Origin: an uncultured Exiguobacterium sp.
GTDB lineage: Bacteria > Bacillota > Bacilli > Exiguobacteriales > Exiguobacteriaceae
Direction of reading: 5' to 3'
Length of the DNA stretch: 64,000 nt
Assembly (NCBI GenBank): GCA_913775715.1
Contig: CAJYMC010000007.1
Location: 310,001-374,000, forward strand
Shown: in pieces, positions 21,536 to 23,501 of the stretch
Numbering within the stretch: position 1 is the first letter of the stretch
Layout: each line of letters opens with the position of its first letter
Notes under the pieces: model-generated
Told to the model about the DNA's origin: nothing
The model's input: the letters and a program-made list of their open reading frames with translations, nothing else
The model's database searches: none
Translations under genes and position numbers: made by a program

Positions 21536-22861
21536 CTAGCTAGCGCGTTTTTGTGTGATAGAAGCACTGGAAACGTGTCCAAACCATGAACTGATTCCAA
21601 AGGCGATGAGTGTCGGAAATAACCATTCTAAGCTTTGGTCCACTAAAGGGAGCGATTGATAGAACGTTTTAAGATTTCCCGGGAAAAGAGAGAGTTGATT
21701 CAACGCACTACAAAGTGAGAAGAAAATTGTTACTCCGAGTGTTAATTGATAGACGACCGACTTACGACGGAACAGATGACGCATGAATGTCAATGCAATC
21801 AAAACGATGACGATTGGATAAAGGAACATTAATACAGGGACAGCGATGGATAACAATGTCTGCAATCCGACGATGGATACTGTAAGACCAAGAGCAGTCG
21901 TGAAGGTGCTTGCCGTTTTTAATGAGATACGTGTGGAAAGAGTCATCATATATTCTGCAAATGCGGTGACGAGACCAACTGATGTCGTCAAACATGCAAG
22001 CAGGATCGCAAGACCGAGCACAGCTAAACCGATTGAGCCGAATGCCGTATTTGCATAATGTTGAAGTAGTGTTGGACCATCGACTTTTCCGATGGCGGCA
22101 AATGTATTACGTCCGATCATTCCGAGTCCGACATAGACGAGCGTCAAAGCAGTGGCAGCGATGATTCCGGCACGAGTGACGACTTTAAACTGGGCTGTTC
22201 GTTCATGAACGCCTCGGCTTTTTAATGTATGCAGTACGACGACACCAAATACTAAGGCGCCGAGTGCATCAAGCGTTAAGTATCCTTGAAGGAATCCTTG
22301 AATGAATGCCTGTCCAGTCGTCTCATATGCTTCGTTTGGTGAAGCGACGCTCGAGAGTGGCGAAATGATGCTACTGATGCTTAATGCAGCAAGAGCCATC
22401 AATAATAATGGTGTGATGAAACGCCCGATGATCTCAAGTAACTTTCCTGGTCGTAGTACAAGATAAAGTGTGGCAAGGAAAAAGAGACTCGATGAGATGA
22501 TCAACGACATTTGTGAGGGAGCACCAAGAAACGGGACGACTCCGAGCTCATACGTGACAACCGATGTGCGCGGAATCCCGAAGAAGGGACCAATCGCAAC
22601 ATAGAGTGCAAACGTCAAGGCAGCACCTACGAAACGAGGGAGTGGTGCAGCAAGTGTTTTGATGCCACCTCCGATAGAGGCAACTGCAAGTAAGCCGAGC
22701 AATGGAAGTCCAACACCCGTCACGATAAAGCCGAGAATGGCTGGGAGGAATTGTTTACCTGCGAGGGCACCGAGTTCTGGTGGGAAGATCAAGTTACCCG
22801 CACCGAAAAATAATGCAAAAATCATAAATCCTAAAGCGAATGTATCTTTTGTCTTAAACAT
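21536..22861 (-). CDS. brnQ: Branched-chain amino acid carrier BrnQ
   Basis: 441-residue Na+-coupled branched-chain amino acid importer (LIVCS family) with about 12 membrane segments. The N-terminal FALGFMIFALFFGAGNLIFPPELG is the family signature. The ATG at 22861 is placed by GGAGG (on the minus strand) seven bases upstream. Upstream on the minus strand are, in order, a CodY-type box, a promoter, an 18-codon leader peptide rich in Leu/Ile/Val and an intrinsic terminator ending about 30 bases before the start: a classical attenuation layout matched to the transported amino acids. degV follows. Confidence 0.93.
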   Translation of the reverse strand: MFKTKDTFALGFMIFALFFGAGNLIFPPELGALAGKQFLPAILGFIVTGVGLPLLGLLAVASIGGGIKTLAAPLPRFVGAALTFALYVAIGPFFGIPRTSVVTYELGVVPFLGAPSQMSLIISSSLFFLATLYLVLRPGKLLEIIGRFITPLLLMALAALSISSIISPLSSVASPNEAYETTGQAFIQGFLQGYLTLDALGALVFGVVVLHTLKSRGVHERTAQFKVVTRAGIIAATALTLVYVGLGMIGRNTFAAIGKVDGPTLLQHYANTAFGSIGLAVLGLAILLACLTTSVGLVTAFAEYMMTLSTRISLKTASTFTTALGLTVSIVGLQTLLSIAVPVLMFLYPIVIVLIALTFMRHLFRRKSVVYQLTLGVTIFFSLCSALNQLSLFPGNLKTFYQSLPLVDQSLEWLFPTLIAFGISSWFGHVSSASITQKRAS

Positions 22862-22891
22862 GTGTTGTCCTCCATTCATCTTAATTTCAAT

Positions 22892-22925
22892 AAAAAAAGC
22901 CTCATCCACGATGTGCGTGGATAGG
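22892..22925 (-). terminator. Attenuator terminator in the brnQ leader
   Basis: On the minus strand CCTATCCACG and CGTGGATGAGG form a 10-bp stem with one bulge, followed by seven Ts, 30 bases before brnQ. A preceding hairpin (AGGCGTC/GACGCCT, 22923-22945) overlaps it by three bases, giving alternative pairing. Confidence 0.85.
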
Positions 22926-23000
22926 CGTCATGTGATCAGACGCCTTGTCGAAATGACGAAAAGGGCCTGGTCTTCATCTTCTCAATCGAGAAATGAATCT

Positions 23001-23057
23001 TCAGTCCCTGGTCCTAATCACAATCAGTCGTACTTGGATGAGCGTTGCGTACGTCAT
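23001..23057 (-). CDS. BrnQ leader peptide
   Basis: 18-codon ORF MTYATLIQVRLIVIRTRD, preceded on the minus strand by GGAGG at eight bases. Seven of 18 residues are Leu, Ile or Val, including the run LIVI. It lies within the predicted brnQ leader RNA, and its stop is directly followed by a long imperfect hairpin and then the terminator. Low charged tRNA would stall the ribosome at the LIVI codons and favour antitermination. No T-box sequence is present. The call is from sequence only, with no expression data. Confidence 0.75.
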   Translation of the reverse strand: MTYATLIQVRLIVIRTRD

Positions 23058-23086
23058 GTTTGAAACCTCCTGTTTGAATTTTTCTA

Positions 23087-23115
23087 AGGATAACATGAAG
23101 AATTTAATAAAACAA
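23087..23115 (-). promoter_or_regulatory. Candidate brnQ promoter
   Basis: On the minus strand TTGTTT (-35, 23110-23115) and TATCCT (-10, 23087-23092) are separated by 17 bases, giving a start near 23080 and a leader of about 220 nucleotides. Confidence 0.55.
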
Positions 23116-23130
23116 TATTTTCTGAAAATT
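23116..23130. promoter_or_regulatory. CodY-type box upstream of brnQ
   Basis: TATTTTCTGAAAATT matches the CodY consensus AATTTTCWGAAAATT at 14 of 15 positions and abuts the -35 element. CodY represses amino-acid uptake genes when GTP and branched-chain amino acids are plentiful. Confidence 0.75.
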
Positions 23131-23156
23131 CATCACCGAATTTTTGAAAACAAATA

Positions 23157-23194
23157 ACGCCTTGAGTAGAGATGAGAGTCTTTACTCAAGGCGT
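23157..23194 (-). terminator. Terminator of the 97-residue gene
   Basis: 12-bp perfect stem (ACGCCTTGAGTA with TACTCAAGGCGT), 14-base loop, moderately T-rich tail on the minus strand. Confidence 0.6.
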
Positions 23195-23207
23195 ATCACG
23201 GTACATA

Positions 23208-23501
23208 TCAGCTCGTTGCAATCGAGCGTGTTTTTTTATGACGTTTCAATTTATGGAGGAGCCAAGCGTGAACGACCTCACAGGATTGACGTGGTAACGT
23301 CAGCTCAACAAGCGATTCCTGCTGTTGCCCTTTGATGATGAAAAGTCCATTTTCTTCATCGACAGGGGCGATGGTCATTGAACTCGCTTCATTCAGCGAC
23401 AGTTTTACTTCACCGAGTGTCGCATCCTTTAATTTAAGGATGTTCCCATTCGTCGCAAATTTCGTGAATGAGCCAATTCCGTTCACTTTTAACTGATCCA
23501 T
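23208..23501 (-). CDS. Hypothetical 97-residue protein
   Basis: Small soluble protein of alternating short beta-like segments (VNGIGSFTKFATNGNILKLKDATLGEVKLSL) and a basic C-terminus (LLHKLKRHKKTRSIATS). No signal peptide or membrane segment. A GGAGG ribosome site precedes the ATG on the minus strand, and a hairpin terminator follows. I do not recognise the family. It is divided from brnQ by its own terminator. Confidence 0.65.
   Translation of the reverse strand: MDQLKVNGIGSFTKFATNGNILKLKDATLGEVKLSLNEASSMTIAPVDEENGLFIIKGQQQESLVELTLPRQSCEVVHAWLLHKLKRHKKTRSIATS

Follow-up and report, generated by a model that had tools for sequence, protein, structure and literature searches.

The ilv and leu leaders of Escherichia coli follow a three-way scheme of alternative pairings (1:2, 2:3 and 3:4) and belong to biosynthetic operons. 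Their leader peptides resemble the element reported here in that a terminator is governed by ribosomes that stall at branched-chain codons (PMC6123439, in excerpt). In Listeria monocytogenes, the leader Rli60 of the ilv-leu operon is divided into segments 1 to 4, of which 2:3 form the antiterminator and 3:4 the terminator, and lost leader translation lowers ilvD transcription (PMC5864092, in excerpt). The same excerpt describes a CodY-controlled leader with a short ORF rich in branched-chain codons and alternative terminator and antiterminator structures downstream, all features with a seen or predicted counterpart at the locus studied here. The Leu-rich attenuator of Staphylococcus aureus ilvD is alike in its genus-conserved Ile and Leu codons, its downstream terminator and the additional action of CodY, but it differs in gene, peptide and antiterminator, the last of which is described as pairing with the poly-U tail (PMC5794164, in excerpt). 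Transporters of the LIVCS (BrnQ) type are under T-box control in Firmicutes; this too is amino-acid-responsive antitermination, but the tRNA is sensed directly and without a leader ORF, as far as the excerpted source goes (PMC2494555), and the DNA analysed here holds no T-box. Taken over the excerpts available, which include a structured-RNA discovery study (PMC8632094) and a survey of S. aureus uORFs (PMC13009471), the literature assigns branched-chain attenuators to biosynthesis operons and T-box control to LIVCS transporters (PMC5864092, PMC5794164, PMC6123439, PMC2494555, PMC8632094, PMC13009471). In the open-licence literature on brnQ leader attenuators, leader peptides of the genus and PF13303/PTS_EIIC_2, seen mostly as titles and the starts of abstracts and with subscription journals mostly outside it, no report was recognised as describing the present element.

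The locus lies upstream of brnQ in a window of 64 kb, the whole stretch of DNA that was analysed. Unlike Rli60, whose clients are biosynthesis genes, the element serves a transporter gene and a gene for a protein of Pfam family PF13303 (Rli60 as excerpted in PMC5864092). It further differs from Rli60, as described there, by an extra anti-antiterminator helix in a chain of the form A-B-C-T and by the predicted read-through of the untranslated window copy. A sequence-only reading of the window had proposed a leader-peptide attenuator for brnQ and noted that a ribosome-dependent leader is known for the Listeria ilv operon. Sequence inspection recovered on the minus strand every element that this reading had listed, each in its place. 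In transcript order, the features are as follows.

23116..23130, minus strand: CodY-like box AATTTTCAGAAAATA, directly 5' of the -35 hexamer, one mismatch to AATTTTCWGAAAATT
23087..23115, minus strand: probable promoter, with -35 TTGTTT at 23115-23110, 17 nt, and an extended -10 TG-T-TATCCT (TATCCT at 23092-23087), from sequence inspection
23066..23070, minus strand: Shine-Dalgarno sequence GGAGG of the leader ORF, from the sequence
23001..23057, minus strand: leader ORF MTYATLIQVRLIVIRTRD*, 18 codons, from sequence and comparison
23016..23027, minus strand: control codons CTG ATT GTG ATT, codons -9 to -6 counted with the stop as -1, each specifying Leu, Ile or Val in 37/37 distinct copies
22962..23009, minus strand: helix A, across the stop codon, AGGG.CTG with CAG.CCCT and an inner hairpin, seven outer pairs pairable in 37/37 distinct copies
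22937..22969, minus strand: helix B, anti-antiterminator, CAGGCCCTT with AAGG.GTCTG, with compensatory changes
22923..22945, minus strand: helix C, antiterminator, AGGCGTC with GACGCCT, variable pair kept in 36/37
22892..22926, minus strand: intrinsic terminator T, GCCTATCCACG-CACAT-CGTGGATGAGGC, stem 22926-22899 and U7 at 22898-22892, from scan and alignment
21536..22861, minus strand: brnQ, branched-chain amino acid carrier, ATG at 22861, matching TIGR00796 and PF05525

The GGAGG and the 18-codon ORF with seven Leu/Ile/Val were thus correctly read, the long imperfect hairpin is helix A, and the hairpin said to overlap the terminator is helix C, whose 3' end has GCC(T) in common with the terminator stem. 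The terminator with its seven Ts is likewise present, and the gene that follows was confirmed as brnQ by profile searches (TIGR00796, E 3.9e-120, above cut-off; PF05525, E 5e-131). Neighbouring helices overlap, A and B at 22969-22962, B and C within 22945-22939, and C and T at 22926-22923, giving a chain of four mutually exclusive hairpins in which B excludes both A and C. A scan of 22500-23500 on both strands returned three terminator-like sites, with 0.9 in shuffles; one of them is 22923-22903 followed by T7. The pattern of terminator stem and T-run matches all 46 aligned copies of the element. An Rfam scan of the 64-kb window found no T-box (RF00230) or other family at gathering score, which bears out the absence of a T-box that had been claimed.

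The promoter is less certain. The hexamers TTGTTT and TATCCT are plausible by eye and similar promoter-like sequences occur across the aligned brnQ leaders, but a strict consensus scan of 22500-23500 found no promoter (1.5 in shuffles). The box at 23130-23116 was labelled with the help of AATTTTCWGAAAATT, which we take to be the CodY box consensus; it is the single match with at most two mismatches in the 64-kb window, where 0.53 would be expected by chance for this consensus. All 11 brnQ leaders carry the sequence TCAGAAAATATTG, part of which had served as the anchor there, and so do the 30 PF13303-type leaders inspected for it. From its sequence, the promoter of the brnQ leader is probably under CodY control. 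A second brnQ paralogue (~40% identity, L025 upstream region) has a CodY-like AATTTTCAGAATATTC upstream and no such leader by eye.

The distribution of the element was followed in 19 genomes of the genus, among them the 3.06-Mb genome of the window, and in 19 of a sister genus, 38 for the family. Orthologues of brnQ occur in 18 of the 19 genus genomes (58-100% identity), the nineteenth having a 40% paralogue only. In 11 of the 19 genomes the element lies before brnQ, and 7 of the 18 orthologues lack it; it stands directly 5' of the gene in 9 of the 11 and about 160 nt upstream in the other 2 (G008, G016). In these two genomes a second promoter-like site, TATAGT, adjoins brnQ (L014:1340-1500 and L017:1337-1500), and their brnQ may have one attenuated and one unattenuated promoter.

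A covariance model built from the 11 brnQ leaders (R1) finds a copy before a PF13303 gene in 19/19 genus genomes, none of these PF13303 copies having been used in building it, and in the sister genus it finds the element before the same gene in 16/19 genomes at E ≤ 0.1. Besides its PF13303 copy, G004 shows a weaker extra match (G004:C3:1758755-1758860; 28 bits, E 0.004). Close PF13303 orthologues (76-100% identity) exist in 35 of the 38 family genomes, exactly the 35 with the element there, while the remaining 3 hold distant PF13303 paralogues only; close orthologue and element are absent together. On this comparison, the main client of the element is the PF13303 gene, and brnQ is a minority client. 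The leader proposed for brnQ is there, but as an attenuator "for brnQ" the description is too narrow, and an attenuator peculiar to brnQ was ruled out by the wider client. The 46 copies (11 brnQ, 35 PF13303) reduce to 37 distinct cores (9 and 28). In a tree of these 37 elements, two distant brnQ copies fall among the PF13303 copies and the other brnQ copies form a long branch; the tree needs 2 client changes, a number to be read with a long-branch warning, and one or two relocations to brnQ both fit. The copy at brnQ, a lineage-specific placement, is most readily understood as a module that has relocated.

Taken by itself, the composition of the leader ORF is unremarkable, as 7 Leu/Ile/Val in 17 residues has a binomial P of 0.11 at an assumed background of 25%. 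It is conservation across genomes, and not Leu/Ile/Val content alone, that raises the ORF above chance in this comparison. Conservation of these codons had been named beforehand as the test of the proposal, and they are kept in all 37 distinct leaders while codons -5 and -4 drift, with 5 and 7 different residues, respectively. Codon -9 is Leu and codon -8 is Ile in 37/37; codon -7 is Ile in 30 and Val in 7 (GTG/ATT); codon -6 is Ile in 22 and Leu in 15 (ATT/CTA/CTG). All four therefore specify Leu, Ile or Val in every distinct copy, at a fixed distance from the stop and despite codon changes. The stretch from codon -10, where the core starts, to the end of the stop codon measures 30 nt in 37/37, and a start codon with an SD-like sequence is found in as many. 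The peptide C-terminus (R/L/Q)LI(I/V)(I/L)xxRD* is conserved, whereas the N-terminus is variable and the ORF ranges from 17 to 21 aa. The final AGG GAC TGA, invariant in the distinct copies except for one TAA, forms the 5' arm of helix A.

The hairpins are conserved as alternatives. Covariation was counted in an alignment of 11 rows, 9 of them distinct, which are few and related, so that the shuffle controls given here are not probabilities. Helix B has double changes at 3 of its 9 pairs against a shuffled mean of 0.9 (10/500 shuffles as high), and 100% of its cells are paired, compared with 31-56% when the partner is slid. Helices A and C and the T core together have double changes at 6 pairs, where shuffling gives 2.0 on average (1/500 shuffles as high), 5 of these pairs in the inner hairpin of A and 1 in C; 3 further pairs of that inner hairpin depart by unpaired cells only. 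The outer pairs of A show one-sided changes and no double change in the 11 rows, and all seven are pairable in 37/37 distinct copies. Among the 37, four variable pairs of B (CG/TA/TG, AT/GC/GT, GC/GT and GC/GT) are kept in 37/37 each and a fifth (TA/CG/TG) in 33/37, with 4 misses; helix C keeps its variable pair in 36/37. The two most variable bases of B also pair with the U and G (or A) of the stop codon within A, in 37/37, and A and B are thus constrained together. Mutually exclusive helices backed by covariation, by which leader-peptide attenuators are recognised as a class, are therefore present. The sequence-only reading has neither helix B nor the CodY-like box, and it does not mention that a further and commoner copy of the element precedes a different gene. 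Its attenuator reading is supported by codons, covariation and folding, but the simple pair of terminator and antiterminator has to give way to four exclusive helices.

Folding was computed with the edge of the ribosome at +13, counted from the codon in the A site. For the full-length window RNA, the probability of the terminator, P(T), starts low, at 0.10 for codon -9 and 0.22 for codon -8, reaches 0.58 for codon -7 and stands at 0.98, 1.00 and 0.99 for codons -6, -5 and -3; a ribosome at the stop codon gives 0.55, which is not decisive. When the RNA between stop and terminator was shuffled, a change as large as that from -8 to -3 was reached in 3/1000. For a stalled as against a passing ribosome, the full window RNA thus gives a clear predicted direction of switching; at the stop the direction is less clear.

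In RNAs ending before the 3' arm of T, helix C is favoured at codons -9 to -7 in every one of the 37 distinct copies; B is favoured in 32, 35 and 33 of 37 at codons -5, -4 and -3 and in 21/37 at the stop. The window copy cut at the same point gives P(C) of 0.95, 0.80, 0.50, 0.75, 0.99 and 1.00 at codons -6 to -1; with C favoured or level at all passing positions, B does not win here ahead of T, and the choice of T depends on its 3' arm being present. In full-length folds with the ribosome at -9 or -8, P(T) averages 0.66-0.68 across the 37 distinct copies, many PF13303 copies favouring T. On these folds, the PF13303 copies that favour T at equilibrium would need C to have formed first, during transcription. 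Untranslated full transcripts fold with C in 8/37, all of them brnQ copies and the window's included, and with T in 29/37. For the untranslated window copy P(C) is 1.00, which amounts to predicted read-through, and on these models the default without translation probably differs between clients.

The following mechanism is proposed. When Leu-, Ile- or Val-tRNAs run short, the ribosome would stall at leader codons -9 to -7 and leave hairpin A free to form over the stop codon. Helix A would block B, permitting C to form and to occupy the base of the terminator stem, so that transcription would continue into brnQ. A ribosome that has moved past the control codons would instead cover the 5' arm of A, upon which B may form and capture the 5' arm of C. 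With B in place, T could form and transcription would end near 22892. The brnQ region is accordingly read, with a probability of roughly 0.87, as a ribosome-mediated transcription attenuator that senses the supply of Leu, Ile and Val behind a probably CodY-controlled promoter. The codons, their spacing and the compensatory pairing come from comparison of genomes and the predicted switch entirely from computed folding; ribosome stalling, termination in vivo and CodY binding are steps that we infer.

The more widespread client encodes, in the genome of the window, a PTS_EIIC_2 (PF13303) membrane protein (E 3.4e-88) from a monocistronic-looking gene (L051:447-1466; G000:C8:84872-85888, minus strand). 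This protein matches no other Pfam domain and no NCBIfam family, and a search of solved structures gave no relevant structure, only two weak diguanylate cyclase hits. A second covariance model, R2, was run over 398 genomes of the class. It finds the element in 35 genomes of the window's family and in a single genome outside it, G158 (E 5.6e-4), in which an orthologous PF13303 gene lies downstream. In the family of G158, here the second family, a diverged element occurs in 18/26 genomes at E ≤ 0.1. The PF13303 orthologue follows on the same strand in 18/18, with 64-100% identity to the G158 protein by tblastn, and a Leu/Ile/Val-rich leader ORF, for example MAQVVNSIRVKGLIRIILRLRT or MNLIQIIEVNLLGIINDLSII, is found in 17/18; none was found at L117. 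A search for the CodY motif gave no match in the 18 loci of this family.

A third family has the PF13303 gene in 8 of 80 genomes. There, G494 encodes the leader MRVREQSSIIIIINLLC* (Ile5-Leu2) and the same helix chain before the gene, G374 and G434 have ambiguous leaders, and in G178, G474, G495 and G473 no leader was seen before it. In G460, a T-box lies upstream of the PF13303 orthologue (L169:1074-1330; 61 bits, below the gathering score of 93, E 5e-11). For folding, 16 of 19 RNAs were used (15 of the 18 from the second family, and G494), the 3 without a terminator-pattern match being left out. With the arm of A free, helix A appears in 15/16 by eye, and the minimum-energy fold contains C in 6/16 and T in the remaining 10. 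A ribosome placed at the stop gives B in 15/16 by eye and T in 15/16. According to these folds, read-through in the second family and G494 would depend on C folding ahead of T while the RNA is still being transcribed. Of 14 further regions upstream of PF13303 genes, one matched R2, and weakly (15 bits, E 0.17), and in families f4, f34 and f51 of the class sample no such element was seen before the PF13303 gene.

In family f10, the PF13303 gene lies within about 100 nt after an ilvE-like gene in 5/5 genomes with a match, and all three upstream genes tested pass the ilvE_II cut-off; at least one other genome of the family (G046) has no PF13303 match. The five loci are L156, L157, L158, L159 and L160, and a short ORF stands between the two genes in L157, L159 and L160. 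In two further genomes (L161, L162), a PF13303 protein of 44% identity is encoded after an L-lactate dehydrogenase-like gene (1/1 tested).

Other explanations of the conserved leader may be weighed against these data. A riboswitch or T-box-like element, in which a metabolite or tRNA selects among the hairpins and the ORF is incidental, would agree with the conservation of alternative helices and with the T-box before the PF13303 gene of G460. It sits poorly with the start codon, SD sequence and in-frame Leu/Ile/Val run found at a fixed distance in 37/37 distinct copies; by eye, moreover, no conserved unpaired pocket exists outside ORF and stems, and the window has no Rfam match, by which a T-box or other known riboswitch was ruled out there. 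Such an element is very improbable, and slightly more so is an antibiotic-sensing leader of the macrolide type, in which R-x-R before the stop codon arrests drug-bound ribosomes and so induces a downstream transporter. The end of the window peptide, I-R-T-R-D, and R-L-R in many peptides of the sister genus and the second family would suit this explanation, and an RLR motif in the hflX uORF of Bacillales is discussed as antibiotic-sensing in the accessible part of the structured-RNA discovery study (PMC8632094). However, the first basic residue is not conserved, with C, Y or F at codon -5 in 14/37 distinct copies, and Arg -3 and Asp -2 are encoded within helix A, which can explain their conservation. 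A ribosome arrested by a macrolide would have codon -3 in its A site, a placement for which the full window RNA gives T at 0.99, and hence repression. The clients, brnQ and the PF13303 gene, also speak against a drug-induced leader, which was rejected on its wrong stall position and the unconserved basic residue.

The least probable of these explanations, at only a few chances in a hundred, is that the ORF encodes a functional small protein and that the terminator merely provides a constant partial read-through. The conserved C-terminal residues would favour a protein, but they consist of an exchangeable Leu/Ile/Val set and of codons lying within helix A, the N-termini differ widely at lengths of 17-21 aa, and helices B and C covary. 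A small protein was ruled out by this codon pattern and by the variable N-termini and lengths. The attenuator sensing Leu, Ile and Val supply, set out above, accounts for the locus with the higher probability given there.

As for the element at large, its clients suggest, from sequence, that the PF13303 protein is a candidate transporter related to branched-chain amino acids. A broader proposal, to which we give slightly less than even odds, is that a hitherto undescribed leader-peptide attenuator with four hairpins is mobile, has long regulated one PF13303 PTS_EIIC_2 subfamily in three or more families of Bacilli, and was copied before brnQ in part of the genus. The subfamily would then transport branched-chain amino acids or their 2-oxo/2-hydroxy acids, not sugars, and the brnQ copy would be on by default if untranslated, the reverse of super-attenuation, because its helix chain has one more helix than the classical scheme. 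On the attenuator reading itself, ribosome-mediated branched-chain attenuation in Gram-positives would reach beyond biosynthesis operons and take in transport genes, in genomes that are also rich in T-boxes, and the element is a module common to two unrelated genes of transporter type. The uncharacterised PF13303 family would gain a testable function on agreeing lines, the Leu/Ile-rich leaders in three families and the upstream ilvE in a fourth, and the four-helix chain would predict an unusual default of the brnQ copy without translation.

T-box matches number 18-22 per genome in the 19 genus genomes, with 22 in the genome of the window, outside the window itself. Several of the T-boxes in the genus form tandem pairs about 50 nt apart, for example G008:C1:2597546-2597780 and 2597833-2598079.
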